From the NCBI GenBank assembly GCA_030062745.1, contig CP099850.1, positions 1,364,001 through 1,428,000 of the forward strand: DNA of 64,000 bases. The letters run 5' to 3'. Position 1 is the first letter of the stretch; every line of letters starts with the position of its first letter. Positions 9,551-61,885 of this stretch are shown here, piece by piece. Both the position numbers and the translations under genes were made by a program. Origin of the DNA: Capitulum mitella (lineage: Eukaryota > Arthropoda > Thecostraca > Pollicipedomorpha > Pollicipedidae). The notes under the pieces are model-generated. The model was not told the DNA's origin, made no database searches, and was given only the letters and a program-made list of their open reading frames with translations.

Positions 9551-12031
9551 ATGCAACTGTTGGCAGGCAGCTGCATGGTAGCAGCGTTTTGCGATGCCAC
9601 TCCGCAGCATGAAGGCGGCAGCTACCAAAGCGGCTTGGGGGTGTCCGGAACGAGCGTCCACGTCGATCTCACTTACCTGCCCCCTCCGACACGCACGCCA
9701 AACGGCGGTCCCTGCATACCGCTGGTGCTCTGTCCGCCGGTGGTGGCCACGCCCAGCGCCCTCTTCATGAACGGCTGTCGGCTCTCGGACGGCTCGCTGG
9801 GAATCGTCTGCACCTTCGGCGGCACGCAGCTGCTCTCCAGGTCGTCTTTGGCCGGCCTCAGCAACTTTGGCGGCGGCGGCGGCGGCGGCGGTGGAGGAGG
9901 AGCGGCGCTGGCTGGTCTGCAGCCGATGGGGACGACGCTGTCAGCGGCGCAGGACGCCCTGGCGGTCAGCCCGCAGTCGTCCGACGTCTTGAGCCAGGCG
10001 GAAGCGGCCGGCCGCCAGGCGGCGACCGTCGTCAGCAGCGTGACGTCGCAGCTGCTGTCCAGCGGGCAGGCGCCGGACCCGAACAGTCCGACGGCGCTGT
10101 TCTTCTTGAACGCCCAGTCGACCCAGGAGGCGCAGGAGCTCGGCTTGCAGGCCCTTCAGTCGCTGGCGACCATCACTAACCTGGAGGCCGTCGCGCCCGG
10201 CAGCGTGCAGGCGTTTCAGAACTTTGCCTCGTTTGGTACCGGTCCGGGTGCGGGCGGAGCGCCGGTCTCCGGAGTAAATGCGATGCCCGGCTGCACGCCT
10301 AAACCGCCGATCGACTGCTCCAACAGCCGTTATCGCACAGTCACCGGCGAGTGCAACAACCTGCAGCGGCCGCGTCTCGGCCGCTCGCTGACCGGTTTCA
10401 AGCGCCTGCTGCCCAACACGTACGACGACGGCGTGTTCGCCTTCCGCACCAGGGCCTTCCGCGGTGGCTTCCTCCCGGGCGCCCGGCTGGTGACCGAGCG
10501 CGTGCTGGACACCTTTTCCAACGAGCTGCGTGACCACACGCTCTCCTTGATGCAGTTCAGCCAGTTCGTCGACCACGATCTGACGCACGCCCTCGTGTTC
10601 CGGCTGGACAATGGCACCGGCATCGAGTGCTGTTTGGACAACGGGCAGACGCTGCCAACTACCCCGCGTCACCCGCAGTGCATCCCGATCCCCATACCGC
10701 AATTCGATCCGTTCTACAGCCGCTTCGGCCAGCGCTGCATGAGCCTGGTGCGCTCGCTGCCGGCGCCGGACCCCAACTGCATTCCTCGACCAGCCCGGCC
10801 GCTCAACGAGCTCACGTCCTTCCTGGACGCGTCCAACGTGTACGGCAGCCAGGAGGAGGAGATGGAGTTACTGCGCTCCCCCAGTGACGGTCTGATGCGC
10901 ACCAGCGCTGGCCAGCTGCTGCCGCTGGACAGCAGGAGTCTGCCCGACCGACCCTGCCGCTTCCCCCTCTGCTTCCGGGCCGGTGACACGCGGGTCAACG
11001 AACAGAGCGGTCTCGTCATCATGCACACCATCTTTGTGCGCGAGCACAACAGAATTGCAGTCATCCTGAAGCAGAACCATCCCGGCTGGGATAACGAGCA
11101 GCTGTTCCAGGAGGCGCGCCGTATCCTGATTGCCGAGTGGCAGCACATCATTTACAACGAGTGGCTGCCGGTCGTCGTCGGGTTCAACTACGCCGACACG
11201 CACGGCCTGCTGCCGCTACCGTCGGGATACTCGTTCTTCTACAACCCCAGCATAGACCCGACCATCTCCAATTCTTTTGCCACAGCAGCGTTCCGGTTCG
11301 GCCACAGCATGGTCCGCGACCTTTACGACCTGCTGGACGCTAACGGACAGGTGACCCGCACGATCAACCTTACCAGCACCTTCTTCGAACCAACAGTCGT
11401 GGCAGAGAGCTTCATAGAACACGCTCGCACCTTGGTCGCCCGCCGGTCGGAGACCTTCGATCAGAACTTCGCAACGGCAATTCACGAGCAGCTGTTTACC
11501 ACCAATTTTGTTTTCGGCTTGGACTTGCTCGCTCTCAATACGCAGCGAGGTCGTGACCATGGAACACCGACTTACGCACAAGTGGTGGAGGCATGCAACA
11601 TCGGAAGAGTGCAGCATTGGGGTGACCTCTTCCGCCTGATGGACTCGAGCACGATCGACCGGCTGCGGTCCGTGTACGACCACCCTCGCGACGTGGACCT
11701 CTTCATCGGTGGTGTGGTCGAGCGACTGGCGCCCGGCGCCCAGGTCGGACCCACCTTCCAGTGCCTGATCGGGCAGCAGTTCTTCGACTTGCGCTACGGA
11801 GACCGCTTCTTCTACGACAACGGCGGCATGCCGCACAGTTTTTCGGAGGCGCAGCTCAGGGAGATCAGGAGGAGCAGCTGGGCACGTATAATGTGTGACA
11901 CTCTTGGCCCTGGGTTCGGAAACGACTTCACGAAGGTGCAGCCCCTCGCCATCCTGACGACGGCCGGTCAGAACCAGGTGACGAGCTGCAACTCGCAGGC
12001 CATTCCTTTCGTTGATCTTTCCGTTTTCTGA
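9551..12031 (+). CDS. Animal haem peroxidase, copy 1 (peroxinectin/chorion-peroxidase type, secreted)
   Basis: Encodes a haem peroxidase of about 826 residues, predicted to oxidise small substrates with H2O2 outside the cell. The start is the ATG directly after the conserved splice acceptor; a second ATG at 9575 aligns with the start of copy 3. Residues 1-16 (MQLLAGSCMVAAFCDA) look like a short signal peptide. A partial cysteine module (Cys55, Cys61 and two more) precedes a glycine run and an Ala/Ser/Gln-rich linker. The catalytic domain begins near residue 250. Visible motifs are the distal DHD at 341-343 with its upstream Gln, a calcium loop (TSFLDAS, 422-428), the catalytic Arg/Glu in REHNR (497-501), the proximal His585 in FRFGHSM, and NTQRGRDHG (663-671). 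Compared with copy 2 it lacks the first cysteine module, a net loss of 43 residues in frame, and has 24 extra bases at its start. It is the only copy with ATG, secretion signal and full frame intact. The family call is firm; the substrate is unknown. Confidence 0.92.
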   Translation: MQLLAGSCMVAAFCDATPQHEGGSYQSGLGVSGTSVHVDLTYLPPPTRTPNGGPCIPLVLCPPVVATPSALFMNGCRLSDGSLGIVCTFGGTQLLSRSSLAGLSNFGGGGGGGGGGGAALAGLQPMGTTLSAAQDALAVSPQSSDVLSQAEAAGRQAATVVSSVTSQLLSSGQAPDPNSPTALFFLNAQSTQEAQELGLQALQSLATITNLEAVAPGSVQAFQNFASFGTGPGAGGAPVSGVNAMPGCTPKPPIDCSNSRYRTVTGECNNLQRPRLGRSLTGFKRLLPNTYDDGVFAFRTRAFRGGFLPGARLVTERVLDTFSNELRDHTLSLMQFSQFVDHDLTHALVFRLDNGTGIECCLDNGQTLPTTPRHPQCIPIPIPQFDPFYSRFGQRCMSLVRSLPAPDPNCIPRPARPLNELTSFLDASNVYGSQEEEMELLRSPSDGLMRTSAGQLLPLDSRSLPDRPCRFPLCFRAGDTRVNEQSGLVIMHTIFVREHNRIAVILKQNHPGWDNEQLFQEARRILIAEWQHIIYNEWLPVVVGFNYADTHGLLPLPSGYSFFYNPSIDPTISNSFATAAFRFGHSMVRDLYDLLDANGQVTRTINLTSTFFEPTVVAESFIEHARTLVARRSETFDQNFATAIHEQLFTTNFVFGLDLLALNTQRGRDHGTPTYAQVVEACNIGRVQHWGDLFRLMDSSTIDRLRSVYDHPRDVDLFIGGVVERLAPGAQVGPTFQCLIGQQFFDLRYGDRFFYDNGGMPHSFSEAQLREIRRSSWARIMCDTLGPGFGNDFTKVQPLAILTTAGQNQVTSCNSQAIPFVDLSVF

Positions 12032-12749
12032 TTTGGTGGCGCTTTCATAGCAACGGTTCTATGTCCAAGTTAGACGTGGCGCTTTGTCTCTGGACTTCCT
12101 AGAACTTCAGTCTGATCTTGGCCTAACACCGTTGTATCGGCACAGTGAATCTCGGATTTTACACGAACACGTTTCATGGAAAAATCATGCTTCCAGAGTG
12201 TTTGTTCGGGAACGCCAAAGTATCAGAGCTGGCAGGCGTTTTTAGCTATACGTTTGGTTGTGCCTGGGTAGCAGCAGCTAAGGCAGCAACTGGTTTCGAA
12301 TGGTATGTGTTGACGGCATGTAAACAAGCGTGCGATTTTTAAAGTTATCACATGGATGTCCGTTTTGTTTTGTTATTCCTCAACTTTGCCAGTAAAGCGT
12401 TGCATCGCCTTCCCCTAACTGAGTTCTGTTTGAAGTGCACCGCTGGAGTGAAATGACGCGCGAGACGAGATTGCCCAGGAACGTTTCAACTGAAGCGTGT
12501 TTGGAATAAATTTGTTTCTTACTGATACAAACCGGCATTTATCAAACTCCTTAGCATTTTGTTTCGCAAGAGTCAAAGTTCTTCCTATAAAGTCAGTGCA
12601 GACTGGACAATTCTGCTGGTGACGGTACACGTCTAGCTGGGTTATTACGTCCACAGCGGTGACCCCGCTAACAATGCTAATCTGTTGCCCCCCCCCCCTC
12701 CCCCGGCTATCACGGACACGACAGGCGGTTGCTGGAAGTTTCTCTGCGC
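12032..12749 (+). other. 3' flank and probable 3' UTR of peroxidase copy 1
   Basis: The first ~25 bp after the stop (TTTGGTGGCGCTTTC) match the 3' flanks of copies 2 and 3, after which the sequence diverges. A consensus AATAAA lies at 12505-12510 and could serve as a polyadenylation signal. No other gene is seen. Confidence 0.4.
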
Positions 12750-13026
12750 CAGGCACGTAGCCAGGATTTTCCTCGGGGGAGGGGGTAAATGTCAAATTTC
12801 GTCATATGCCACAGGCGTATGACAAACTGTGTAGAAAGAAGCATGACTTTTACGTTACCGACCTCATATTCAACGTACACGAAAACCTGATATGTTTGCT
12901 TTTGCACCATATATATGATGACTATTCCGTATTCCTACGAAATCGCTAAATAGCTAGTGTAGACCACTTGGCTCGGGGGATGACATGGCTCCCACACTCG
13001 CCGCCCCCTCCTTGGCTACGCCCGTC
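12750..13026 (+). mobile_element. hAT-like MITE, family F2, second copy
   Basis: Left end CAGGCACGTAGCCAGGA and right end TCCTTGGCTACGCCC are inverted repeats. The interior matches 4078-4347 in the opposite orientation, including the CATATGCCACAGGCGTATGAC block near 12804. No convincing target duplication is visible here, so this copy may be older or its flank altered. It sits about 720 bp downstream of peroxidase copy 1. Confidence 0.65.
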
Positions 13027-15799: not shown

Positions 15800-16101
15800 A
15801 TTGTCTTTAATAGACCTGAAGTCATCAGTCCCTCGGAAAGCACTGCTTTTCTTTTATTATGGACCGTGACAAATACCAGATTGTATTTTCAGAGAACGAG
15901 CTGGAACTTAAATAGATGCCTGCGTGTAGCCCCGAAAACAAACACCCTTGCAGATAACATCCGCACTAGCCAGAACTGCCGGCCGCAGGCCAGCTGGGTT
16001 CCAGCCAACAGAACGATTCGCCGTCGGACGAACCCACAAGCGGGCCGCTCTGACTCGGTTGGTTTGATCCACAAAGACAACCTTGTAACGGAGGGGAGGG
16101 C
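15800..16101. other. Short intergenic spacer
   Basis: About 300 bp between repeat R1 and the next F1 element; nothing recognised. Confidence 0.4.
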
Positions 16102-16109
16102 TGAGCGCT

Positions 16110-16440: not shown

Positions 16441-16448
16441 GTAGCGTT

Positions 16449-18090: not shown

Positions 18091-18174
18091 TTTCATGGAC
18101 TATGTTTGATCCGTTCTAGCTTTATCATCGTAAATGACCTTGGCATCTTTCACCCCGAAAATCTGCTCTTCAGT

Positions 18175-19976: not shown

Positions 19977-19989
19977 AATAGATTAAGAC

Positions 19990-22532: not shown

Positions 22533-22536
22533 GTAA

Positions 22537-23719
22537 CCCGCCCTCGACTGGGGGGGGCAGTTGACTGCCCCCCTGAGGTTTTTCTGGGATTGCAAGAGAA
22601 TGAACAAATACAGAGTCACGAAACTTTGTGCACCTTTTGCTTCATTATTTTTACATCTTGTGTCAAAGTTTTGACCTCGGGTCAGCTCAGGTGCCTGACC
22701 CAGATCAGGTCAAACAGACCTATGTACAGAAAAGTTTAGCGCCCTGTAGCTTCTTCGGAAAACAAGATATCACAATAATACTTTCAGGGATTAGTGATCT
22801 TGATAGATAAAACAAATCTGCTATTTCAGATTTTTCCGAATTTTCTGGGTTATTGACCTAAGGTCAAGCCCATTTTTTAAGACATGTCGTTTTTTCGGAA
22901 ATTGACGGGATATTTCATAACATTTTTAGCGTGGAGTGAAGCAGACATCGAATTACCGTCATTGGGCAAAGTATCAATGACTTCCAGCCATTGGCCTGAG
23001 GTCAGGTCACGAATAGCTGTTGTGAGGCAAAATGTACCACCGTCAAAATCAGCGATGAATTATTCAGAATGGGTAGTAAATGGCAGACTTGGCTTGCACA
23101 GACGTCAGTAATACCAGGAACCTCAAAAAGTTAAAAAAACTGGATGTTTTGGCAATAAACAGTCTCTCGCGAACAAAGCCCCGCCAAATGTGTAGGTTGG
23201 TAACTAACGAATTTTTCCGAAATTTAAGCATGAAAAACCATCACAAGAACCACTAAGATCAATAAAATGTACATGGATAGGCTTTTTTCGCGAAAATTGC
23301 GTACGGCTGCGGCGCACGCCGACAGCCGGCGCGAAAATTGCCGTGCCTTTAAATCAACGTTTCGGAGTATATATTGAACAAATCCGAGAAATCAGACGTG
23401 TATCGGCATTTGCGGACCTTTACTCGTGCGCTGGTGCCTTTACCTATGCGTTATAAGTCACAGCCCTTGAGATTCAGGGCATTTCTTGGTCTCATGCAGT
23501 CGGCTATGAGAAAACATATATAGGACGTAAATTGCATACATATTATCTAAAACTAAAAATGAGACCAGTTTCGAGCTTTACTCTTCACAAGCTTGCCAAC
23601 GGTGTGCTTATTTTTATCGTGCGACCAACGGTTCGTGAGTTAAAGGTAGGGGCGGCCAACTGCCCCGCCCCCCCCCCCCAGTCGGGCATGATTGTAACCG
23701 ACCGACGGTCGTGCGCGGG
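22537..23719 (+). mobile_element. piggyBac-like TTAA element, family B
   Basis: A 1183-bp unit flanked by GTAA (22533-22536, a probable mutated TTAA) and TTAA (23720-23723). It begins CCCGCCCTCGACTGGGGG and ends in CCCAGTCGGG followed by an extra block and CGTGCGCGGG, giving inverted ends headed by CCCG. It matches 49329-50550 along its whole length. It contains paired GGGGGCAGTTGAC/GTTGACTGCCCCC blocks near the left end, and TGACCT/AGGTCA hexamers near 22672-22712, 22855-22865 and 22996-23008. Frames inside are short and unlike piggyBac transposase. Confidence 0.75.
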
Positions 23720-23723
23720 TTAA

Positions 23724-24529
23724 AAAAGACACTCCCAAAGAGCCTCGGCCACCAAAAAACTTGAAATACCACTAACTATCTTGCACATGCAACGTTGCAA
23801 CAATTTATAGTTCCAAACTCGGAGAAATCGAGCACGCTAACGACGTTCATCTAACGTCTCTGGATGACTCTACAAGTCAGTCTGTCCATGTTGCGCATTT
23901 CCACGGAGTGTTGCGCAACATTGCAAAGGCCAATATCTGCATATCGCACAGACATTGCTAGTTTACTCGCCAGGCTGAAGTCTGCGTGAAATCACCTGAA
24001 GCCAAACTACGAAAAAAATACTGTCGATGCTGCAAGAACCTGCTATGCAAGTTGTACATGCAGTTTTTTGTAATACAGTTCAATAATCCATCTGACCGTT
24101 TCGAAAAATCAGGTAATCCCGTTCCTTTTCTGCGATGTGTTCTCCCTTGGCTCGGAACATGAAAAATGCATATTTGACCCAGGATAACCTAGCATTAGGT
24201 CACAGGAGTTCCATATCGAGCCCGCCGGTCATGCTGATTGCAATGCAGGCCTTAAGTCCCATTCTTTTAAAAAGCACCGACAATACGACGAAGTAAAATT
24301 GGGCGTCAAATCGCGAAACATGATCGTATTTACGGCGTCATTAGGACGTGACCTAAGATGATCTCGTTTCCAAATCCTTGTCATTATGTGTGGTAATGAT
24401 GCAAAAATGTACGGAACATTTCAGGACGTGGCATTCATTCCTTTGGGAAATATCCAAGAAATGTGCCAGGGGTCGTTAAACGCCCCATTCGCCCCAGTCA
24501 TTGGCGGTTTAAAACATAAGGGATAACGC
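23724..24529. other. Intergenic, no recognised gene
   Basis: About 800 bp without a recognised gene or repeat end. Confidence 0.4.
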
Positions 24530-29089: not shown

Positions 29090-30030
29090 TCTTTTTCACG
29101 TCGCGATCGCTTGTATTTCTCATTTTGCTCGTATGCATCGACCAACATATGTACTTCGGCGAACATCCATAAAGCTGTGAAAGACGAAGTGGTTCCGAAC
29201 AATGTCTACTCGGGTGAAGGTCTTCTACGCGAGATCATTTCGCGCTTTAGAGGTGTCCGAAATCAGGCACCTCACGTGTGCGTAAATCAGGGCCTCATCT
29301 AACATGTTAATTGGGGGGCCAGGCCACACACTGGAAACGCCACCCCCCCCCAAGCAAGGCGGAACTGGTTAAGTGGGGAGGGGTTTCAAGCTGAAGTGTT
29401 CCAATTGGGAATTTTAGACCGTTTGCTGCCAACGAATAGCCGTCTCTCTAATTATGGCATACGCCATTTAAACGAATGCGACAGATATCCTGGACAGAGT
29501 GAATCTACTACGCACATGTTCTGGTACTGTCCCGATGTCAGGAGGTTCTGGACCAGTTTACAGCGGGCCTCGCGACTGCAAAACCAACCAGTTCAGTTGG
29601 TAACCCCGGACTGTCACGAGGGAGCCCACTCCCTTTGTCCAAGTTCCCTCTTTATGTACATTACGTAAGACAAACACTGTATGGTTCTGCAGGTATGGGC
29701 GCCGAATGACCTCGAAATCGGTGCGCTCCTAATCCCCAATTATCAGTCAATCTGCATGTATTCAGGCGTTCGTCGAGAGCTCCAGGGCGTTTTACAATCA
29801 AGCTGCGTTATATCAGAGTAGAAAAATATGTAGCTACCTTATCAAACAAGCTAACTTTCATGCCGAGTGGACTCGCTTAACCGAGCTTCTGAAGGCTCGT
29901 GAGCAACCACCATGAGCTGCCCATCGGATCTCGCGATGCCTACGTGTGGAAGGTCAGGCCACCAGGTCACTGCTTGGTGTTGGTCAACCACGTTGTTGGG
30001 CCGCGTTGGTGGGCCGAGATCCTGCAGAAC
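29090..30030 (+). mobile_element. LINE 3' fragment, copy 1
   Basis: Homologous to 57838-58735. The frame near 29396-29620 translates to a region typical of the zinc-binding tail after a non-LTR reverse transcriptase: LPTNSRLSNYGI, a Cys-containing ECDRYPGQSE segment, then HMFWYC (His-x4-Cys) and DVRRFW. The usual second Cys of the first pair is Tyr here. No reverse transcriptase core is present, so it is a 5'-truncated remnant, probably L1/Tx1-like. It belongs to a block duplicated beside peroxidase copies 2 and 3. Confidence 0.55.
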
Positions 30031-30406
30031 GGAATAATCTGCCCTTCTCGAGCTGGTGGCATAGCCGTCGTGGGGGAGAGGGTCTGGGGGAGGAGTTACC
30101 GAGGTCAGCTAAACCTGACGCGCATCGACTTCACCGCACTGTGCTCGTCCTATGACAGTAATATGTGTTTGAGTCTGTAATCGATTATCTGATTGTGTGT
30201 TTGTGCAGTATGAAGTTGAGTGTTTATTGATTTGAAGTATACAAAGGCACCAGCGATGGAAACCTAGGCAAACTGGAAAACTGGGATTGAGGGAGTTACA
30301 GTCCCCCAAGTCATGTGATCTAATACACGATTTTTAGTGGAGATGGAAGATTTTTCATAATACAAAGTCACTGCAACAATCTTCGTCTATTAGTTTTTTT
30401 TTTTAA

Positions 30407-31586
30407 CCCTACTCCCGGAGGGCTAGACGGTATGGTCGATTCCCAGCAGGGGGGGAGCGGATTCGGCCCTCTCTGAGATCTCGAGAACTACTAATCCGAT
30501 TTCATCGCAACAAACGGCAATCGATTTGCCATGACGTCAACTACATTTTTATAAGAAGAAATTCTCAAAATTTTGAAATGTGTGGATACAAGGGAGAAAA
30601 ATGTCAAAATCAGGGGTGCTTTTGGACTTCTTATAACTCCGTTGTTTATCGACCGATTTCAGTGAAACTGGCATGGATCGAGAGATTATGGATAGGGATT
30701 TTACCATGGGTGCACACATCTGAAACTTTGAGAAAATTTATGGGCGTTCACAGGGTTTCAAAAATAGGAGGATTAGTTTTCTAACAACTGAATGAACAAA
30801 AGAGGCAAAAACGCTTTTTTGGCTTCTGCTAGTCATGTTATGCTAAAGAAGTACAAATCGCACCACATTGTTTGTATAATGTTAGCATAGGCGGTGCCAG
30901 GGACATGAAAAAGGGGAACTGTCATGGTCACACGTTCTTCAGATCAACTTGTGACCTTTCACCTTAAATGACCTCCAGTGACCTTGGAATCACTTGGAAT
31001 GATTTCGTGTGCATTTGATATTATCTGTAAGCGTTTTCAATCATTTGAATTCACTTTATTTAAAAAAAATTTCATTTTATGGCTATTGCGATATAGGGTA
31101 CGCGCCCTGACATTTTAGGTCATAGCTCCGTGACCTGACCTAATATCAAGCTGAAACTTGATACACAAGTAGAGGGCGCCGTTCTACGTCATATGTATTT
31201 CGGGTTTGGCATTTGAAAGGACGGCGCGGAAATTATTGCAAAAAAACAAATTTTGACTTTTGACCTTGACCCGACCTTGTAAAATGACCTCAGATGAACA
31301 AAATTACATCTGCACATTGCCCAACTATTTAGCTATACATCCATATAAAGTTTTAAATTCTATCCTAAAAACTCTGTTTTTGGCAGACATTGTCCTTTTA
31401 CCCTCAACATGGCCAAAAATGGCATGTGGTGCCTCCCAACAACGTTGCTTGAAATTTTGTCACGGCGCGTAGAAAGAATAGCTAAGAGAAGTCACCAAGT
31501 TTCGTGAAGCTGCGTCAAAAAGCCTGGAATTGGCAGGCAAAAAACCCGAGGGGGGCGGATTCAGCCCCCCCCTGCCGGGAATAGGG
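30407..31586 (+). mobile_element. piggyBac-like TTAA element, family A, intact length
   Basis: An 1180-bp unit starting CCCTACTCCCGG next to TTAA (30403-30406) and ending CCGGGAATAGGG next to TTGG (31587-31590, probably mutated TTAA). Inverted ends are AACCCTAYTCCCGG plus nearby G/C runs. The interior carries the family landmark GTTAGCATAGGCGGTGCC (30884-30901), a DR1-like TGACCTTTCACCTT, and further TGACCT hexamers (30951-30985, 31260-31290). No transposase is encoded. The same flanking DNA exists without the element at 58800-58850, an empty site that marks the insertion. Confidence 0.8.
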
Positions 31587-31590
31587 TTGG

Positions 31591-32997: not shown

Positions 32998-34580
32998 CTA
33001 TTCCATCTCTCGTACCTTAGTGATCAGCACGAGCTGCGCATCTCTGCGCAGATGGGCCACCGCAACAGATTTGGCCTGCTCGGCCAGCGCTGTCAGCTTG
33101 TGTGTGATGTTGTACGGTAGGTCGGCAGTTCTGCCATATTGGCAGGCGGGTGGACGTCGTGATGATCATGTCATCTGGACTGGACGCATGACCAGTCGTT
33201 ATTTTTCGACGCGTGGTCCGTGCCAGCCAGCTCTTCCGCCACTGTAGTGCCAACAGCACCGGACGTGGAGTAGCCGCCGCCGGCGCCGACGGCTAGTGCC
33301 TGAAGCACTGCACGGAGAGGAGTCACATCGCCAACACCGGACGTGGAGGCACCGAGGTCGGTTCTTAACGGTATTGAAAAGGGCTGATACATAGCATGAC
33401 GGGAATGGACCAGACTGTCCCAGACCAGATTGGATTGCATGACGCTGGACCAGACCAGCATAGACCAGACCATTGAGCAGACTGGAGGGGAGACAAAGGT
33501 AACCAAGATGGGACAGGGTGGGGTGTAACAGAATTAGGCAAACAAGAACATACCAGAATAGATCAGACCAGACCAAATCAATCTGGTCTATCCCCTCTTG
33601 TCTTGATCAGCATGTGATCAGTGGTTGGTTGATTGGTTATTGGGGCTTAGGGGCGCACCGACTGCAGGGTCATTCGGCGCCCACATGGGGTTTAAGTGAG
33701 TTTGGACAAGCATCAGGTAACACCAGCAGAAAGCCAATATAAATTGCAAGTCACGAGCAGCAAATACCCCCACTCCAGGCAGCATTAACATGAACCCTAT
33801 GGCACTGCTTGGCAAGAAACAAGGCAAAAATTATTTGCCGCCCCCCCCCCTCATGAAAGTTTCATTGCTGCTGCGGGAAATGCTATACTGGAAAAGATGT
33901 TGGAGATAATAACATTCGTCACAGAACAATCTGACTAGCCGAAATGCAATCTGGTGAAACATGTAGATATTTTTTTCAAGTGGCATAGCCTACTGACAGG
34001 ACCTACAATGCTCCAGGCACAAGAACATAGCTGGACCAGCTTGTTAAGTCTTAATGTGAGTGACATGTTTGCTGCCTGTGAAGATAATTCATTAGTATTT
34101 GAAAAAAGGTCGTCAAAAGATAGTTTAAACACATGAAAAGCAGCATATATTGTTTCTGGACTCAGCAGTATCCAGGCACTCATATCTGATTTCAGACAGA
34201 TTTATGTGCTAGAACACCAAACTTATATGAATGAATGATTAAACAATTCAGAACACCAGTTCTCAAATATACCTTTCCAGTTAAAGGCATGTGCTATTTC
34301 ATATCACTATTCTATCAACAAATGCGGTTAAAACTCAAGTATTTACCCAGTTTCAAGTACACACCCATATAAGAACTAAGATAATCCCAAACGTCAAAGG
34401 AATATAACCAAGTATGTGATTCGGTGTGTGATCAAATACAGGCATCGAAGACCTCGTTCCCCTACGGTCGGACCACGAGAATACACGGAACCCTTTTACA
34501 CAACGATGCACTATTTTCCGCCTCTATTGCGCCATAATGGGATGCAGTGATTTCTGGGTACGCACCCCAAACAACAGAAT
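32998..34580. other. Intergenic with small repeats
   Basis: No gene recognised. CCAACANCACCGGACGTGGAG occurs twice (33250, 33338). AGACCAGACC-type units recur at 33410-33590. The segment 33636-33692 is a ~50-bp repeat found inverted in the two LINE fragments (29697-29750, 58541-58595), with core CGAATGACCCTGCAGTCGGT when read on the minus strand. Confidence 0.4.
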
Positions 34581-34701
34581 ACCAGATTCACAGCGTCAAT
34601 ACAGTGGTGTTGAGCCAAGACCACATCAGTGTTGCAGAACCAGAGGCGGAACACCTCGTCCAAGGTGAACATAGAGTAGTCACTAGGAAAGCGCCATCAG
34701 A
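34581..34701 (-). other. 3' flank of peroxidase copy 2, shared with copy 3
   Basis: Aligns with 59166-59288 (GTGGTGTTGAGCCAA, CACCTCGTCCAAGGT, CACTAGGAAAGCGCCA). Probably 3' UTR. No AATAAA was found close by on the minus strand. Confidence 0.5.
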
Positions 34702-37311: not shown

Positions 37312-38690
37312 CTGAAACACAGGGAGGCAGGGGTCGATTTGCGTACGCACGACTAGATCGTTATAGTTGTGCGCGCTGAAAACCGCATCATTCCATGCCA
37401 TTTGTGGGACCCTCGTTTAACTTAAATTGAGCTTTGTTACATTATGGTACCATTTTTCCGAGCAAATTCCACACAGAAAAACAAAGAACAAAAAAGCCAA
37501 CTTCAGCAGCAAAGCGATTGATACTAAATGGGCGTAAAAATTAAGTAAAAACGATACATAAAAACATACAAAACGATACAAAACATAAACGCCAAGACAC
37601 TGAAAGCGTCATCCCAAGGCATATTAAACATAAGAACGTCAAACACCTCGCGATAAAAAAAGCTTGCCGATTCCTAAAATGATAGGCACCTGCTTCTTCT
37701 GATTTGTGAATGTCATGGAAGATTGAAGTGGCAGCGTACGATATTGGAAACAATAAGCATAAAAAATTCAAGGCCAGAATTACAAGCATAAAACCCGTTT
37801 TTATGAATTTTCCTAACTAGTCCACAATTAAGCAGCAAATTTACCACACACAAACCGAACTATAAAAATCACATCAGTTTCCCCGCTTCAAGAAAGATGG
37901 AAATCCCGTAGATGGCCCCTATCAAATGGCAAATCAGATATCAAATGGCCTCTATCCTGATGTCCGAAATAATGGCTGTGAGACATCCCATAACTGTGGA
38001 TACCATACCCGTTTCATATACACTCCGGGACGTCATTTTGACCGGAGGTCGTGACGTTCACCAAAACATGAATTCCTGAATGGATTTCATGTAGTTTTGG
38101 CTCATGCTGGTTTTTCGAAATAGTGGCACGATGGTATTTTTTTTCTCTACAAAATATTGTAGTTATGCTTTATGGACCGAAAATTCCACGCTACTCATAG
38201 ATGGTATAGATCACTGGCAGCCTTTGTAACAATGAAGATATATTACGTGGGACTGTATCAATAATATCCTTTTTCCGGATGACAGCGAACTGTCAACTCC
38301 ATTTGAAATCCCAACTTGAAAACGTCATTCTGGCCAACTGCACGGGTAGCAGAGCATAACACGGACCGGATATCCGTGTGAATATCCACATGGGACTAGA
38401 TAACGTAGTTAACTGGACAATCTTTTGAGAATTCCGTGGATTGGATACGGTTCACCTCTGAACTCACGAATTTCTGTCACAAGAAACGGCGACTTAAATG
38501 TAAACAACTTACAGCATATCTGCATAAAAAGCGTTTTTGTCTCTGTCGGCAAGGGTTAGATAAGTTCCAACTTCCAGACATGGCTAAATTCTCAAAGCTA
38601 CAGCAGAAAAGGATATGGTACTTGCCATTTGTTCAACCACCGACAAAAATATTTACGATGGAGGCAGTTGCGATGCAAAAAAAAGAACCA
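37312..38690 (-). promoter_or_regulatory. Conserved upstream block of peroxidase copy 2
   Basis: The inverted counterpart of 8216-9550, including the splice acceptor TGTGTTTCAG (37321-37312 on the minus strand) and the leader or intron sequence before it. Alignment with copy 1 runs to about 38690 and then stops abruptly at repeat R1, whose end is at 38701. Any promoter and 5' exon should lie in this block, but I cannot place them. Confidence 0.55.
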
Positions 38691-38700
38691 TGACTTTTGA

Positions 38701-39345
38701 ATAGTTTACCTTGGTGGGACTCCAGCAAATAATACAAAATCACCGAACAGATTGCGCAAATGATTCCGTTATTTGTTTATGTCATGGAACCAGGGAAATG
38801 TCAAAATTCTGGTGAAAAATGCATTCAACACCATGAGGTCATATAAAGGAGTGACACCAGACACGCAACGACGTGACGTCATGCCTCCAGGATTTACGGT
38901 GAACCAAATATAGGCCAGCGACGCGCTGCAATGACAATTCATATGCTGAGTGTGAAGTGGCAGTTCGTCGTTCGGTGGTCTGAAGAGAATAATTGTGCTG
39001 CTCATCTGTCACGTCACGCTGGCAAATACTCACGAAAAAACGGTCCCCGCGGCACCACACCCGCAACATCTCAGCCGCGTGACTTGGGACTCAGGCCGCC
39101 ATTATTCCCACGAGTGGCAACCACTGGCAACCGAAACGAAGTCAACGCCCGAGGATGGCCGAGGTCGGCCGACTCGCACTCCCCCAAATCTCGCGCTCCC
39201 CTCCAAAATCATTGACATAATTTATTCTAGCATCGTAGAGGAAAACAAATGAGCTTTGGATCATGTAGTTTCTACATCTAAGCTACAATTCCCGGTATCT
39301 CAGTTCAAAATCCCATACAGAGGTGAGCAGCTCACTATCATTTTC
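38701..39345 (-). repeat. Repeat R1, uninterrupted copy
   Basis: About 645 bp, inverted relative to 14661-15799 and 1-173. It contains, read on the minus strand, ATTGTAGCTTAGATGTAGAA, a GGACCGTTTTTTCGTGAGTA block and the right end AAGGTAAACTAT. It lacks the 458-bp insertion present in the 14661 copy. It abuts the end of the duplicated peroxidase upstream block. No coding content. Confidence 0.65.
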
Positions 39346-41040
39346 TCTCATTTAAACAACATAATAACTAAGCTAAATGTCTAAAAAGCATTTAATAACC
39401 ATTCTCCAAGACATTTAACAGAATAAGAGAAACATCCTAGAAATTGGTATGGCTTATATTGCGTCACAAAGGAGTTGTTTCAGTTGCGCATCTTCATTTC
39501 AGTAAAAAAAAGATAAAATTATGGGCGATAAATCGCACGATCATTTCCGTATTATATTTCATTTTGCGTCGTAGAGATGTCCCAGGCCGAAAACGATTGA
39601 ATTGAGGCAGAGCACGGATTCGTGTGCGAAGCAAAATACAAGCATGTTTGATTGGTTCTTATCGGGACAGAGTTCATGGTTTTAATTCAAGCTATGTAGT
39701 TTTCTTGACTGGGGGCGAAAAGTGTTCTGGCAAGGGGAGGGGCGCCGGCTGCTTTTCGAGCCATTTCTTTCCATGCAGCGCCATAGGGCTAATGTTAAAC
39801 TTCGCCGGGGTCAGGGGCACGGTGTCACGGTGCCTCCCGTTCCGCCGTCTATGGCTTCTGTACGCGTTTTAGAAAGATTCACGTATTATAACGATCACAT
39901 TATGGCACATATGGACGACGAATACTTCTTTTTGCCTTAACTGCTCGATGACGAACCACGATGCGCCACGAAAATACGGAGTTGCCCAGGCTTGTTGCCG
40001 CCTGGTGCAATGATTATGGGTAGCAGGACAACTTCAGTACGTTTCAAGATGTTTATCGAATGTCCCGAAGACGATCCAACGTAAGATTTTAAATGTTGTG
40101 GGCAAGTCAATGGACCACCAGCCTTCCTAGTTGGGTAAGCCGTTGAAACCAGCGAACCCATCAACTTTCCCGTCCAGGTAAAGCACAGTACGGGCGCGTT
40201 TTACGGCCCTATCGTCGCCGTAACACCGGTAACGGCACGGCGTGTCCCAAGTAGACACTTCCAGTTCAATGAAACACTGTTTGGCAACCTTTTGTTTCCA
40301 TGATTTTCCGGTTTTGACCGCAGCTTATCACTGCTGACTTTATTGTGACGCAACATACCTTGGAGCGTGAGCGGGTCTTGCCGTCCCAAATCACATTGTT
40401 TATCATCACTGCTCCCCAAAAATTCTTCCTAGGCTTCTTTGTAGGAGCGCCGCCTACTGACAGGACGGCGTCCCAGCGCGCCGCCTGCGCGCGTGCGGGG
40501 CTTACCCATAGCGTCCACATGGCGCCGCTTCCCGGCCTGGAAACGGTGTCCGTTGCCGACCTCCACCGCCGGCCGCTGCCGCCTCTATCCCGGCCAAGCA
40601 CAGAACGCCGCTTTTATAGGGTGGCACCGGCTGGCCGATTTGCCGGCTGGCCGCAGATGGGGATTGCCGTGCAACTCCCTCGTATCAGACAACCGCAAGC
40701 CGGCGCAGCGCTCAGACAAGCAGACCGAGCACGGCGGCACAGTCTACCCCTAGCGGCGGGACTAGTACTGATTGTCTGAATCCGAAAATCGATTTTCCCA
40801 AGATTTTCCGATTTCCGAATGAGAAATAAGTTTAACATAGCACTTATTTTCTTAAAAATTGGACTTTACCTCAGTTGCCTGGAGTTAAAAACGACGCTTT
40901 TGAGGTGACGTATATTAATGTTTTAAGATCAAAAAAGGTCATCTGGGGTCATTGACCTTGTTTGACCTTTAACAGACTATTGACTTCTCCCAAGTGACCT
41001 GTTCGCTTGTGAATGACCATTCTGAAACGATTTCATGCTC
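39346..41040. other. Intergenic, no recognised gene
   Basis: GC-rich frames at 40345-40780 show no recognisable domain. At 40905-41010 a cluster of TGACCT/AGGTCA-like hexamers (GGGGTCATTGACC, TTTGACCTTT) resembles the interior of the TTAA families and may be a fragment. Block 39700-39830 shares a CGCCATAGGGCTAATGTTAA segment with the complement of 33780-33810. Confidence 0.4.
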
Positions 41041-42370
41041 GTCATCTGCCGTTTATCATCATCATCATCATCATCACGTATTTCGCTCAGCCTCCATGTA
41101 ATGGTTTTTCAGGCCGCGTGTCATACATTGAATCGCAGCATAGATACAGGGCCACAGTGAGAGCAAACAGTCAAAACGTACGCACATGGTTAAGAACAGG
41201 CTACCGCTCATCTAAACACCCCAGCCACGGCCGCACCGCCCTCCGGCAACCGCCAGCGCTCACCGACTCCCTAAAATCAGCTGGGGCCCGAGTCCACACG
41301 GCAGCCGCCCGGTAGGTGAAACGCCTACGGGGCAGCTCCATGCGAACGAGGGGCGGCTGCAGAAGGCCGGCCCGAACCCCGCGGGTGCCGCGGGCCGCCA
41401 CGTCACTCCGGTGCACCGCCTGATACCGTAGTGTCGGGGACGCGCGGGTGGCGCAGCGCCCGGTACATCATGGCAATGTCACGTTCGGGAACTGGGTCAT
41501 CAATGGTCGGCCAGCTAAGTTGTTGCAAAAGCGGTGACACATGATTTCGTCTTTTTGAGCAGAGCACAATGCGAGCACAGTGGTTCAAAATCTTTTGCAG
41601 CCGGTGGCGTAGCGTTGCTTCACACCCGCCTTACACAGTCATACAGTACAAAATATGAGGCAACACTAACGCTTCAAAATGAAACTTTTTGACTTCCGCT
41701 GGTAAACGGTGAGATAGTTTAGATATGTCACTGATTGTTGCTTAACAACGGCGCATTACCATAAACACGAGCGAGGCCCACGTCAGATTACAGTCAACAA
41801 TCATGCCCAAAACCTTAACAGCTGATGATGGGTTTATAACGGCGCGCCCACATTTCACAGTAAACCTGTATTTGAGCGTCGCTGCCTCGTCTCGTTTTAT
41901 GTGGGCTGATGCACAGACTGTTCTCCGCAAACCGCACGCTCGCCATCTTCAAACTTTCCTCAACGCGTGACGGAAGGCTGGGTAAGTCTTTGGCATTACA
42001 GCGGCGAATGTACTGAGTGTCGTCAGCGTACATAACAATCTTACAGTCTGTCATGTAAGAAAGCAAGTCATTGGTAAATGAAAGAAACAAAATGGTTTCG
42101 CGCAGCGATCCCTGGATCACACCGTGAGTGACCGGCGCGTTCGTGAATCCTCCCCGGACGCGCTGAGAACGACCGGCAAACCAGCATTCAAACCAATGAA
42201 TGGCTGAACCGTGCCAACCTCATTTTCCTACCACACGGGTGTGTTTAACAGAATCAAAAGCCTCAGAGGTGTCAACTGTCGTAAGCATGGAATGTGGCCC
42301 AGAACCCATGTTAAGTACTAAATGGCTGATGACATCGAGCATTGTCGACTCTGTAGAGTGTCCAGGTTAG
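41041..42370 (-). mobile_element. CR1/L2/jockey-like LINE, 5'-truncated, with (ATG)n-type tail
   Basis: Minus-strand translations show reverse transcriptase motifs in order: DTSEAFDSV (near 42270-42240), WFECWFAGRSQRV, GVIQGSLRETI (near 42120), the catalytic YADDTQ (near 42035-42018) and SVKVLGMIVD (near 41825-41795). A C-terminal region follows, with LQKILNHCARIVL and PLLQQLSWPTIDD (41600-41490). The element ends at a trinucleotide run at 41055-41076 (CATCATCATC on the plus strand), a typical LINE tail. Frame changes and stops interrupt it, and the N-terminal endonuclease is missing, so it is dead. The fingers of the polymerase (before DTSEAFDSV) are not seen. Confidence 0.75.
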
Positions 42371-43944: not shown

Positions 43945-44225
43945 GACGCCCTCGCCTTTCCCCGTTAGCGACCATCCTCGTCCTCATCGACGTTTGGAAG
44001 CCCATCTTCCCCTCAAAGTTATCTTCCCCCTCCGTGTTCTTCCTCGCCCTCCGTGAAAGCATGGGAGCCCATCTTCCCTTTAATATCCTCCTCCCCCTCC
44101 GCAACCCTCCTCGTTTTCCATCGACGCATCGAAGCCCATCTTCCCTTCAAACTTCTCTTCCTCCTCCTCGAACATCACCGTCCTTCATCAATGCATGGAA
44201 GCCAATCTTCCCTTCAAACATGGCT
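43945..44225. repeat. 67-bp minisatellite, about four units
   Basis: The phrase GAAGCCCATCTTCCC and variants begin at 43997, 44064, 44131 and 44198, exactly 67 bp apart. Because 67 is not a multiple of three, the pyrimidine-rich repeat is unlikely to be coding even though open frames cross it. Confidence 0.8.
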
Positions 44226-49324: not shown

Positions 49325-49328
49325 TTAA

Positions 49329-50550: not shown

Positions 50551-50554
50551 TTAA

Positions 50555-56110: not shown

Positions 56111-57509
56111 TCTAGTAGTCACTAATAGCAGACCAGGATAATCTCTGAGCAACTTTACCCATAGGCAATCCGTCCCACGAAGACTTTTAGAATTGCAAAC
56201 CCATTTTACGCTATTGGTCTATAGCAAGGGTGATGACTCGTTAACGAACGACATAGACAAATCGTTGTAGATGAAGAGGGCATAATCTTCACGGCGCCTT
56301 TGAAGGTCAAAAAGGCTTGACATAACTGAAGACCCCTGCAGGCTGGCCCAATATAAGCTGGCCCTTGCGCACACGGCAGTTCGGCCAATTTACGTGAGAG
56401 TGATGTCACGCCCCCCCCCCCCCGCTTCTGCACGGACGGTAGAATAAACGTTTTTAAAATCCGCGGCTCCCACCCAGTTAACGCGTCCGGGCCCGCCGGG
56501 CTTTTGCGAACCCTGCGGGCGAAGTGCGTGGGTGTTGTGGTCTTCAGAAATCAGGTTTCGAGTAGAAAATTGCTCTTTGCAGTCCGTTTCGCGGTTATTC
56601 GGAGCGACTGGCTTTGGGTTTGGCTTTGGGTTTGGGTTTGGGATTGGCTTTGGCCCATGGGTTTCACTGGTTCAAAGATTGCAGCTAAAACAGCTAACCT
56701 AAACACCTAAGACAAGCAGCTACAGATTTGACGGGGCCACCACCATCTCACCACGGTGGCTGGGAAGACGGAACACTAAGGCAAGGATAGGATTAGAAGT
56801 CACGCCCTTGCCAAGTGAAATCAGAGACATTGCCAGCTGAGCCATCTGGCGTGTTTGTGCTGTGTGTTTCTGCATGCGGGTCAGTGTACACGGTGCGCTT
56901 GATGTGCGTGAGTAACCGTTTGCGTGTCTTGACACATGTGCGCCATTTTCCTCCCTTCCTTCCGCCGTTGGCCCGCACTGATCCTGAGACCGAATAGTCA
57001 CTTCGCATTCTGTCACCGCGAGTGTCCCGAGGTGGCGCAATATGAATACGCACAATAATGCAATTAGCACAGACAATATACTACAATATAACTGTGTACT
57101 CATTCTTCATTCTATGCAATTTTCACCGTCGGTGGTTTTGGTATATACAAGCAACGCAGTTTTTTATTCTACAACGTTCCCGCAATCGTGATTGGTGCTT
57201 AGCTATGTTTCGTTGTAACTGTAGTCCAAATTGTAGTCCAAAACATACTGGCCGAGATCGCAAACAGGCATAACCTGGGGATTTGCATAGCTTCATTATG
57301 TACAATATGCATGCCTATACCTATTTTAACTTAGGCCGTACATAAAAAACATGTAGGTATCTAGGCGCTTGCGCATGTACACTTGAACATATATTGCATC
57401 CCAAATATTTTCATTTTTGAGCCTTTTTTGCCTACTCTTAATTTTTTTCTGACAAAGGGCCAGAACTGCCTACTTTTAATTTTTTCTGGCCAGAGCCATT
57501 GCCGCCAGA
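56111..57509. other. Intergenic, no recognised gene
   Basis: A GGCTTTGGGTTTGG-type simple repeat lies at 56610-56652. Nothing else is recognised. Confidence 0.4.
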
Positions 57510-57835
57510 ACGAACTCACGTCGTTTGAGGGGCCCCTGAAAAGTTGGTGGCACACGTCCGAAAACACAATCTTCCGCCACCGTAAAAGACATGGGTGTAG
57601 TGTAGAGAGCAATCTTCTGTCGCCGCCGCCCACAGCCGCTGCTTCACGTCGTCGACGCTGTTCGAGAACGAAGTCACAACGTTTGAGGGGCCCCTGAAAA
57701 GTTGGTGGCACACATCTGAAAACACAGTCTTCCCCACCTGCAGAAGACATGGGTGTAGTGCAGAGAGCAATATCCTGTCGCCGCCGCCCACAGCCGCTGC
57801 TTCACGTCGTCGACGTCGTTCGTTCGTCCGCGTCG
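57510..57835. repeat. 158-bp tandem duplication
   Basis: GAGGGGCCCCTGAAAAGTTG starts at 57527 and again at 57685. Both units continue through AGACATGGGTGTAGTG and CGCCGCCGCCCACAGCCGCT to a TTCACGTCGTCGACG end. A small number of differences separate the two units. It abuts the LINE fragment at 57838. Confidence 0.85.
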
Positions 57836-57837
57836 TT

Positions 57838-58735
57838 TGTCACGTCGATCGTTTGTATTTCTGGTGTTACTCGTATGCGTCGACCAACATATGTACTTTG
57901 GCGAACATTCACAAAGCTGTGAAAGACGAAGTGGTTCCGATCGGTGTCTTCTCGGGTGAAGACCTTCTGCGCGAGGTCATTTCGCGCTTTAGAGATGTGC
58001 GTAATTAGGCACCTCATGTTTGTGTACATCAGGGTCTCATTGAACATGTTAACTGGGGGCTCAACCCCCACAATGGAGTCGCCATCCCTCCCCCCATCAA
58101 GGCAAAATTGACGAAGTGGGGCGTTCAAGCTGACGTGACTCCGATTTGGAATTTTACGTTTACTGCCAACTAATAGCCGTCTAGCTAGTTATGGCATACG
58201 CCACTCAGGCGAATGCGACTATGTCCTGGACAGAGAGAATCTATTACGCACATCTTCTGCTACTGTCCCGATGTTAAGAGGTTCTGTACCAGCGGGCCTC
58301 GCGACTGCAAAGCCAACTAACAATTCAGTCGGTAATCCTGGACCGTCACGAGGGAGGTCACTCCCTTTGCCAAAGTGCCCTCTTTATGTGCATTACGTTA
58401 GACAAACACTGTATGGTTCTGCAGGTACTCTGGCGTTCTTTTAGAACCGTAGGGCTTTATGAAATCGACCTGCATTACATCAGAGTAAAAAATACGTAGC
58501 TGTCGTATCAAACAAGCTGACCAGGTTTCACGACAAGTGGGCGCCGAATGACCCTGTAGTCGGTGCGTCCCTAAGCCGCAATAACCAAGTGGGCTCGCTT
58601 GGCCGAATTTCTGAAGGCTTGTGAGCGACCACCATGAATTGCCATAGGACCTCGCGGCGTATACTTGTGAAATGTCAGGCCACCAGGTCACTGCTTCGTG
58701 TTGGTCAATAACGTTGTTGGGCTGCGTTGATGGGT
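57838..58735 (+). mobile_element. LINE 3' fragment, copy 2
   Basis: Homologous to 29090-30030. The same zinc-binding tail region is present near 58165-58300, more disrupted than in copy 1, so it is a dead remnant. Its right part carries the CGAATGACCCTGTAGTCGGT repeat (58548-58567). Confidence 0.55.
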
Positions 58736-59288
58736 CAAGTTATAATGTAATGCGCGGTTTCCAGTACTGACGTAAGGTTTTCTATAATGCGAAATCACTG
58801 CAAAAATGTTCGTCTATCAATTTTTCGAACACTTCTGCTAGCGACCTTCTGCGCAGTCATATCTTGCGTTTTACTTCAATCCAGCAGTGAACTTCAGAGA
58901 ACCCAGTTAAGAAAAGGCGGTGCAACGCTTTCTCTGCAGAGTTGTGTAATAACAATACAAAAGGGACATCCACGTGATAACTTCAACAATCGCACACTTG
59001 TACACATTTCATCAACATCTTCCCCTCAAGATCAGTTGTTGTCCTGCAGTCTGCTGTCACACAGGCAGAACTAAACATACAGTTAAACATGCCTGACATG
59101 TGAAAATGGCATCTCTGAACAAACATGACGAAGCATAATTTGTTTACTGGGCGCATTCGTGAAAAAAACGAGATTCACCGTGCCAATACAATGGTGTTGA
59201 GCCAATACCAGACAAACAGTGCAGAACCACAGGCGAAGCACCTCGTCCAAGGTAAATACAGAGCCGCCACTAGGAAAGCGCCACCAGA
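58736..59288. other. Duplicated block with empty site, and 3' flank of peroxidase copy 3
   Basis: 58755-58955 aligns with 30331-30402 joined to 31591-31725 without the TTAA element, so it is a paralogous empty site. 59166-59288 aligns with the 3' flank of peroxidase copy 2. Confidence 0.65.
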
Positions 59289-61885
59289 TCAGAAAACGGA
59301 AAGATCAACGAAGGGAATGGCCTGCAAGTTGCAGCTCGTCACCTGGTTCTGACCGGCCGTCGTCAGGATGGCGAGGGGCTGCACCTTCGTGAAGTCGTTT
59401 CCGAACCCAGGGCCAAGCGTGTCACACATTATACGTGCCCAGCTGCTCCTCCTGATCTCCCTGAGCTGCGCCTCCGAAAAGCTGTGCGGCATGCCGCCGT
59501 TGTCGTAGAAGAAGCGGTCTCCGTAGCGCAAGTCGAAGAACTGCTGCCCGATCAGGCACTGGAAGGTGGGTCCGACCTGGGCGCCGGGCGCCAGCCTCTC
59601 GGCCACACCACCGATGAAGAGGTCCACGTCGCGAGGGTGGTCGTACACGGACCGCAGCCGGTCGATCGCGTTCGAGTCCATCAGGCGGAAGAGGTCACCC
59701 CAATGCTGCACTCTTCCGATGTTGCATGCCTCCACCACTTGTGCGTAAGTCGGTGTTCCATGGTCACGACCTCGCTGAATGTTGAGGGCGAGCAAGTCCA
59801 AACCGAAAACAAAATTGGTGGTAAACAGTTGCTCGTGAATCGCCGTGGCGACGTTGCGATCGAAGGCCTCCGACCGACGGGCGACCAAGGTGCGAGCATG
59901 TTCTATGAAGCTCTCTGCCACAACAGTTGGTTCGAAGAAGGTGCTGGTAAGGTTGATCGTGCGGGTCACCTGTCCGTTAGCGTCCAACAGGTCGTAAAGG
60001 TCACGGACCAGGGTGTGGCCGAACCGGAACGCCGCTGTGGCAAAGGAGTTGGAGATGGTCGGGTCGATGTTGGGGTTGTAGAAGAACGAGTATCCCGACG
60101 GTAGCGGCAGCAGGCCGTGAACGTCGGCATACTTGAACCCGATGACCACCGGCAGCCACTCGTTGTAGATGATGTGCTGCCACTCGGCCGTCAGGATACG
60201 GCGCGCCTCCTGGAACAGCTGCTCGTTATCCCAGCCGGGATGGTTCTGCTTCAGGACGACTGCAATCCTGTTGTGCTCGCGCACAAAGATGGTGTGCATG
60301 ATGGTGAGACCGCTCTGTTCGTTGACCCGCGTGTCACCGGCCCGGAAGCAGAGGGGGAAGCGGCAGGGTCGATCGGAGATACTCCCACCGTCCAGCGGCA
60401 GCAGCTGGCCAGCGCTGGTGCGCATCAAACCGTCACTGGATGAGCGCAGTGCCTCCAGCTCCTCCTCCTGGCTGCCGTATACGTTGGACGCATCCAGGAA
60501 GGATGTGAGCTCGTTGAGCGGCCGGGCTGGTCGAGGAATGCAGTTGGGGTCCGGTGCCGGCAGCGAGCGCACCAGGCTCATGCAGCGCTGGCCGAAGCGG
60601 CTGTAGAACGGATCGTAGAACGGTATGGGGATCGGGATGCACTGCGGGTGACGCGGGGTAGTTGGCAGCGTCTGCCCGTTGTCCAAGCAGCACTCGATGC
60701 CTGCGCCAGTGTCCAGCCGGAACACGAGGGCGTGCGTCAGATCGTGGTCAACGAACTGGCTGAACTGCATCAGCGAGAGCGTGTGGTCACGCAGCTCGTT
60801 GGAGAAGGTGTCCAGCACGCGCTCACTCACCAACCGGGCACTCGGGAGGAAGCCACCGCGGAAGGCCCTGGTGCGGAAGGCGAACACGCCGTCGTCGTAC
60901 GTGTTGGGCAGCAGGCGCTTGAAGCCAGTCAGCGAGCGGCCGAGACGAGGCACCTGCAGGTTGTTGCACTCGCCGGTGACTGTGCGGTAGCGGCTGTGGG
61001 AGCAGTCGATCGGCGGTTCAGGCGTGCAGCCGGGCACCACATTTGCGTCGGAGGCTGGCGCTCCGCCCACATCCGGGTCTATGCCAAAAGCGGTACCCGC
61101 CTGCACGCTGCCGGGCGCGACGGCCTCTAGGTTAGTGATAGTCGCCAGCGACTGCAGGGCCTGCAGGCCGAGCTCCTGCGCCTCCTGGGTCGACTGGGCG
61201 TTCAAGAAGAACAGCGCCGTCGGACTGTTCGGGTCCGGCGCCTGCCCGCTGGACAGCAGCTGCGACGTCACGCTGCTGACGACGGTCGCCGCCTGGCGGC
61301 CGGCCGCTTCCGCCTGGCTCAAGACGTTGGACGACTGCGGGCTGACCGCCAGGGCGTCCTGCGCCGCTGACAGCGTCGTCCCCATCGGCTGCAGACCAGC
61401 CAGCGCCGCTCCTCCTCCACCGCCGCCGCCGCCGCCGCCGCCAAAATTGCTGCGGCCGGCCAAAGACGACCTGGAGAGCAGCTGCGTGCCGCCGAAGGTG
61501 CAGACGATTCCCAGCGAGCCGTCCGAGAGCCGACAGCCGTTCATGAAGAGGGCGCTGGGCGTGGCCACCACCGGCGGACAGAGCACCAGCGGTATGCAGG
61601 GACCGCCGTTGTGCCAGCTCGTCGGGGGCAGGTAGGCGATATCGGCTTGGCCGCTCGTTCCGGACACCCCAAGCCGGACGGGGCGCTTTGGTAGCCGCCT
61701 CCGACGGGCCCGGGAAAGTGGACAGGACCCAGCTGCGGACAGCAGAGGCCGACGCCGCCGTGCGGCAGACGGCACTGCAGCAGGTGGCCGGCTCTCAGCG
61801 CCTGCGGACAGGAGGCCGCCGTGCTGCAGTAGCACTGACCTTCCGCCAGCGGAATGGCCGCGCAAAGCGCAGCTGCGCTCCACAT
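59289..61885 (-). pseudogene. Animal haem peroxidase, copy 3, N-terminal frameshift
   Basis: The exon starts with ATG (61885-61883) directly after the conserved splice acceptor and encodes MWSAAALCAAIPLAEG, a good signal peptide, followed by the same six-cysteine module as copy 2. At 61667-61670 a run of four C replaces five C in copy 2 (GGGGG in copy 1), so this frame leaves the peroxidase frame and stops near 61541. The rest of the domain is open and complete: DHD, TSFLDAS, REHNR, FRFGHTL and NIQRGRDHG are intact through the shared C-terminus FVDLSVF. Near the linker it differs from the other copies, with QAGTAFGIDPDVGG instead of the QAFQN type. Either it is a recent pseudogene, or the one-base difference is a sequence error, or a downstream ATG gives a form without a secretion signal. 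Confidence 0.75.

Follow-up and report, generated by a model that had tools for sequence, protein, structure and literature searches.

The analysed window of 64,000 nucleotides from Capitulum mitella (C12:1364001-1428000, C12 standing for contig CP099850.1) carries three genes for putatively secreted animal haem peroxidases. We propose, with a probability of about 0.7, that these genes belong to a local birth-and-death cluster that arose by whole-gene duplications, is under purifying selection, perhaps with some gene conversion, and likely encodes matrix cross-linkers. By sequence comparison, the duplicated unit was the whole gene, made up of a promoter, a first exon of five codons, an intron and one large exon, and it was copied more than once, with copies 1 and 2 ending up inverted to each other. 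Flanks and introns have since drifted to mostly 71-83 % identity and gained different insertions, and the large exon has stayed more alike through purifying selection, perhaps aided by conversion between copies. The assembly searched comprises 477,042,490 bases in 16 contigs. Surroundings were compared over 224 kb assembled around the window, with negative window coordinates denoting positions upstream of the window start. Copies 1, 2 and 3 are called g1, g2 and g3, a fourth copy g4, and three diverged relatives g5, g6 and g7.

The window copies and their relatives

Each gene is represented in the window by its large second exon:

9551 to 12031, + strand: copy 1 (g1), large exon 2 of a putative secreted haem peroxidase (open frame, PF03098, TTTCAG acceptor, alignment)
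34702 to 37311, - strand: copy 2 (g2), large exon 2 with both Cys-rich modules (open frame, PF03098, TTTCAG acceptor, alignment)
59289 to 61885, - strand: copy 3 (g3), large exon 2, with a frame break as assembled (open frames, PF03098)

The long open frames cover 9542-12031 (+), 34702-37401 (-) and 59289-61883 (-), and positions 9551, 37311 and 61885 are in each copy the first base past a TTTCAG splice acceptor. A preliminary description of the window had taken these positions as the starts of the genes; they evidently mark exon ends instead, and the two-exon gene model presented below had been missed. Including flanks, the aligned stretches are 94.6 % identical at the DNA level between copies 1 and 2 (2555 columns), 90.3 % between copies 1 and 3 (2878) and 90.2 % between copies 2 and 3 (3137). 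For the proteins, compared over the common in-frame part from GVSG onwards, the corresponding values are 96.0 % of 797, 93.1 % of 793 and 92.9 % of 793 positions, and a chance likeness of the three copies is evidently excluded. The earlier count of three genes is thus correct, and the wording "near-identical" is slightly too strong for proteins that share 93-96 % of their residues. Copies 1 and 2 are mirror-oriented, as had been described, and copies 2 and 3 point in the same direction with 24,587 bases between their stops.

All three copies contain the An_peroxidase domain PF03098 (E 6.7e-174 to 9.7e-173; 576-580 bits vs a cut-off of 25), with profile positions 1-519 of 530 covered in every case. 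The distal Gln-x2-Asp-His, the Arg/Glu pair, the proximal His, the Asn and the calcium loop, to which roles in haem and calcium binding are assigned, were found by a motif scan in g1-g4. Among proteins of solved structure, lactoperoxidase and myeloperoxidase match best (PDB 2ikc and 12cl; E about 4e-80 over about 540 residues), and the same residues and calcium loop of g2 align with those of lactoperoxidase. We expect that the window proteins should bind haem and calcium. These mammalian enzymes have the same catalytic domain, to which the window genes add N-terminal Cys-rich modules, a poly-Gly stretch, a further linker region and the five-codon first exon. A structure prediction of copy 2 from a five-row alignment had a mean pLDDT (predicted local distance difference test) of 29.8 and was not used.

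The copies differ in their state. Copy 2 is open throughout and has both Cys-rich modules, and copy 1 keeps the signal-like start and lacks most of the first module. Copy 3 has four Gs near 61674 vs five in copy 2, and its frame from the acceptor at 61885 stops near 61543; the remainder of the exon is open in another frame with the same low ratio of nonsynonymous to synonymous divergence (dN/dS). The break may be either a consensus error or real.

The preliminary description had suspected further copies beyond the window, and these are found. A genome search with copy 2 returned at least 54 exon-level matches (from the best 51 of 182 candidates scored). The fourth copy, g4, lies on the same contig 16 Mb from the window (C12:17277580-17280249, 84 % identity). 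The more distant relatives at C12:1.48-1.55 Mb (g5 at 1481-1484 kb, g6 at 1501-1503 kb, g7 at 1551-1553 kb) all lie within 130 kb after the window copies. Among the matches scored, the next best after the C12 members is a gene on C10 with 55 % identity. We placed 11 peroxidase rows in a tree that included g5 only up to its frame break and left out most other genome matches. Copies 1 and 2 group together (99/98) and are joined by g3, g4 and g5 (97/99), the order among these three being unsettled; g6 (91/94), g7 (86/92) and the C10 gene (98/98) follow outward. The tree program flagged the C10 gene and the row labelled L060 as long branches. Copies 1 and 2 are evidently sisters in opposite orientation, and the tree and the positions together suggest that the cluster runs from close copies at one end to older members at the other.

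A duplicated unit that comprises the whole gene

The gene model rests on comparison, because g1-g4 have a common promoter-proximal sequence, first exon and donor and g5 shows the same layout. In an alignment of the four copies, the first exon reads ATG TGG ACG CTA TGG (MWTLW) in g1-g4 and is followed by a GTAAG donor. A 20-base word that begins with the ATG and ends in the donor has three occurrences in the 224 kb, one ahead of each of g1-g3 (window -3176 on the + strand, 40520 and 72389 on the - strand), and a fourth near g4 (C12:17289250, -). The parts of this model that fall within the window are:

40521 to 40618, - strand: promoter-proximal stretch of copy 2, with TATAAAA starting 98 bases before the ATG (four-copy alignment)
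40506 to 40520, - strand: coding part of the copy 2 first exon, MWTLW, followed by the GTAAG donor (20-base word, comparison)
37312 to 40505, - strand: putative intron of copy 2, 3.2 kb (donor and acceptor positions)
1 to 9550, + strand: part of the putative intron of copy 1, whose first exon lies outside the window at C12:1360824 (comparison)
61886 to 64000, - strand: part of the putative intron of copy 3, whose first exon lies outside the window at C12:1436389 (comparison)

A TATA-like box stands about 98 bases before the ATG in every copy, as TATAAAA in copy 2, TATATAA in copies 3 and 4 and TACATAA in copy 1. All four copies agree in 90 of the 110 columns from -95 to the end of the first exon (+15), compared with 40 of 67 columns further upstream and 35 of 63 over the first intron bases. 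A 0.9 kb block of copy 2 (39856-40751) finds matches upstream of copies 1, 3 and 4 (among the best 40 of 1868 candidates scored). The intron sizes deduced from these positions are about 12.7, 3.2, 10.5 and 9.0 kb in copies 1, 2, 3 and 4. Joined in frame, MWTLW and IWSAAALCAAIPLAEG together look like a signal peptide by eye, and the protein would thus be exported.

A profile of the four copies also gave a weaker match (E 0.0004) at window 107225-107407, on the strand of g5 and 7.6 kb before its exon. The match reads TATATAAG, followed by ATG AGG GCT CCA TGG (MRAPW) and again by GTAAG, and the g5 exon starts with another hydrophobic stretch, in frame. The same layout with partly different codons apparently provides an independent check on the gene model. 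We also observed a GC-rich core of 17 bases just inside the intron (window 40476-40492, -) that is identical in copies 1-4 despite the 35 of 63 columns around it, and it could be a regulatory element.

One might ask whether the copies are retroposed intronless versions of one peroxidase, since no intron divides the catalytic domain. We consider this extremely improbable: the copies have in common the promoter-proximal sequence, the first exon, the donor, blocks of the intron and the acceptor, and mRNA retroposition would not carry them.

The DNA around the exons was compared in the same way, and the main blocks and one insertion are:

8217 to 9299 (+ strand) with 37611 to 38688 (- strand), inverted: intron block common to copies 1 and 2, 77 % identical (genome search, alignment)
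38701 to 40398 (- strand) with window -1566 to 173 of copy 1: the next inverted block, 77 % identical (alignment)
29092 to 30013 (- strand) with 57836 to 58734 (- strand): block downstream of copies 2 and 3, about 0.9 kb, up to 83 % identical (alignment)
41056 to 42370, - strand: many-copy insertion upstream of the copy 2 promoter, with a reverse-transcriptase fragment at 41815-42219 (genome search, Pfam)

Outside the exon, copies 1 and 2 align in collinear inverted blocks that are 71-79 % identical, are interrupted by insertions and reach out to window -5205 and 43591, respectively. This bears out the proposal of repeated duplication with inversion. For the DNA immediately ahead of the copy 2 exon (37430-38700), the genome search gave a counterpart upstream of copy 1 and otherwise just two short matches on C5 and C8 (all four candidates scored). 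The more than 1.3 kb of common upstream DNA described earlier for copies 1 and 2 is real and extends further in pieces, at an identity of only 71-77 % beside the exon. Downstream, a short stretch of copy 1 (12371-12497) matches copy 2 (31717-31591) at 71 %. Copies 2 and 3 have 34578-37712 and 59165-62252 in common, and separately the promoter block at 78 %. The middle of the 29092-30013 block has matches of 72-76 % elsewhere over about 300 bases and is a dispersed element (best 40 of 690 candidates scored). The remaining DNA between the genes is common only as dispersed repeats.

Could the three copies be one gene shown three times because haplotypes were left uncollapsed or contigs misjoined? 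Haplotype duplicates are common in assemblies of outbred marine animals, and the broken frames of g3 and g5 would be in keeping with local errors of the consensus. Allelic copies would match throughout, though. Here identity in the common flanks and introns is mostly 71-83 %, the insertions differ between copies, and most of the intervening DNA has no counterpart except as dispersed repeats. An assembly artefact is accordingly very improbable, and the copies are real and fairly old segmental duplicates rather than a haplotype echo. Since high identity is limited to the large exon, the duplications are older than the exons suggest.

We rejected the distance of 24.6 kb between the stops of copies 2 and 3 as a repeat unit: between them only a few hundred bases near the genes, the 0.9 kb block and dispersed repeats are common. 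In sum, what the preliminary description observed was right and its interpretation mostly so, with duplication and inversion upheld and the 24.6 kb step dropped. Three further stretches (7026-7816, 22534-23724 and 30390-31588) were rejected as parts of the duplication; they are dispersed repeats, each of which recurs several times more in the 224 kb (about 69-88 % identity).

The reverse-transcriptase fragment scores 27.6 bits, just below the Pfam cut-off of 29.6, and is the sole match among eight other open frames of the window. Tandem repeats were observed at 57507-57822 (158 bases, 2 copies, 90 % matches) and at 43968-44219 (67 bases, 3.8 copies). In the window, Rfam gave no match at the gathering score and ARAGORN found no genes. 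Genome-wide, five repeats of TTAGG, the telomere-type repeat of arthropods, occur at 5,729 sites vs 12 sites for four repeats of TTAGGG. A search of the assembly for COX1 gave no match.

Purifying selection and possible gene conversion

In the large exon, synonymous (dS) and nonsynonymous (dN) divergence amount to 0.086 and 0.022 between copies 1 and 2, 0.117 and 0.038 between copies 1 and 3, and 0.130 and 0.040 between copies 2 and 3. Each window copy compared with g4 has a dS of 0.23-0.25 and a dN of 0.075-0.085. The dN/dS among the window copies is 0.25-0.32, and on these alignments purifying selection has demonstrably helped to keep the large exon alike. It is conceivable that duplication and selection are enough and that no conversion took place, with slow coding evolution extending to the GC-rich synonymous sites (GC content at third codon positions 0.82-0.83). 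We give this explanation a little less than an even chance, and the drop in identity right at the exon ends agrees with it.

If constraint alone were at work, the ratio of intron divergence to dS should be alike in all pairs. Measured on 787 codons and, beside exon 1, 564 intron columns free of gaps, this ratio (confidence range in brackets) is 2.44 (1.73-3.49) for g1-g2, 2.13 (1.55-2.94) for g1-g3 and 1.75 (1.29-2.37) for g2-g3, and 1.55 (1.20-2.01) for g1-g4, 1.32 (1.01-1.71) for g2-g4 and 1.26 (0.97-1.65) for g3-g4. The pairs with g4, under the same constraint, thus give 1.26-1.55 vs 1.75-2.44 for the window pairs, with overlapping ranges, which argues for some conversion among the window copies. 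A run test on all 342 polymorphic sites points the same way for the window pairs 1-2, 1-3 and 2-3 (p 0.006, 0.0016 and <0.0002), and in five of six pairs, g1-g4 and g3-g4 among them, sites that agree form longer runs than they do after shuffling. Copies 2 and 3 are also identical over 100 alignment columns inside the exon start, beside an intron that is about 69 % alike.

Several points weigh against the reading that we prefer. In most pairs, the ratios have overlapping confidence ranges. Restricted to 124 silent sites, the run test fails in all three window pairs (p 0.12, 0.18 and 0.29) and is passed by only one of the six pairs, g1-g4 (p 0.0004), and the runs show no significant clustering among 56 informative sites (p 0.18); both outcomes favour selection without conversion. 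Because of the run signals in g1-g4 and g3-g4, g4 is not a clean control and may have taken part in exchange itself. An exon under uneven constraint along its length can give the all-site result as well. With the frame break of copy 3 and the lost module of copy 1, moreover, some copies may not be active full-length enzymes. Taken together, the evidence for gene conversion in the coding exon is moderate and mixed, and we consider that its chances are somewhat better than even. In comparison, tandem families with concerted evolution likewise consist of local duplicates, one of them inverted here, with coding parts more alike than flanks, and conversion is only moderately supported in the present case.

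Repeat-bearing neighbours and possible function

Two of the relatives carry long repeats:

C12:1478989-1483308 (window 114989-119308), + strand: g5, peroxidase relative with a Ser/Gly repeat (open frame)
C12:1505996-1500714 (window 141996-136714), - strand: g6, peroxidase relative with a Gly/Pro/Ala-rich stretch (one open frame, 1760 residues)

In both genes the repeat lies between the first and second Cys-rich modules. The g5 repeat is 673 residues long (44 % Ser, 42 % Gly), and the g6 stretch is 917 residues long (26 % Gly, 24 % Pro, 13 % Ala). The frame of g5 shifts near its end, and in g6 a Gln replaces the Glu found in the other frames read. This Glu binds haem covalently in mammalian peroxidases. 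Both linkers seem reminiscent of silk- or collagen-type proteins. Speculatively, and with a probability that we consider rather low, the cluster may be an adhesive-curing module in which some peroxidases co-assemble with fibres and cross-link them from inside, the compact window copies supply dose and the variable linker diversifies. Among the titles found in the literature, none concerns a barnacle peroxidase gene cluster or a repeat-fused peroxidase.

The exported protein would oxidise small phenols or tyrosines with hydrogen peroxide, and most likely would cross-link extracellular matrix, such as cuticle or barnacle cement. We hold matrix or cement cross-linking to be the leading candidate for the role, tentatively and at not quite even odds, with immunity next. 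Crustacean haem peroxidases include immune peroxinectins, and the window genes might be immune or antioxidant (peroxinectin-like) peroxidases rather than matrix cross-linkers. The KGD/RGD integrin-binding motif is typical of peroxinectin, and a single RGD is present among the relatives read, inside the Ser/Gly stretch of g5. A motif scan found neither KGD nor RGD in g1, g2, g3, g4, g7, the C10 gene or the entire g6 frame, an absence that does not exclude immunity. We consider the immune or antioxidant role unlikely, and do not claim the window copies, with neither motif, as apparent peroxinectins in the strict sense.

Matrix cross-linking has known parallels. According to the passages available, barnacle cement proteomes hold several peroxidases that are proposed as cross-linkers (PMC5099703, PMC7177777, PMC8371367). 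The cement of Amphibalanus amphitrite is described with three peroxinectins and one peroxidase (PMC5099703), and a table of PMC8371367 gives 4 and 10 An_peroxidase proteins per barnacle species. Like the window genes, the cement peroxidases of Amphibalanus amphitrite (PMC5099703) and Pollicipes pollicipes (PMC7177777, PMC8371367) belong to An_peroxidase with several members per species, a likeness by description rather than by sequence, and the passages of these accounts describe no gene clusters or fused repeats. Similarly likened by description is the peroxinectin of caddisfly silk, a secreted haem peroxidase proposed to cross-link underwater silk, as cited in PMC5099703.

The growth of this family is of an ordinary kind that is well resolved here, with whole-gene units, one inversion, decay of the flanks and possible conversion. 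Reading each gene as a single exon would miss the gene model that the comparison supplies. The cluster may offer candidate genes for the peroxidases of barnacle cement proteomes, and suggests that some of them are fused to silk-like repeats.

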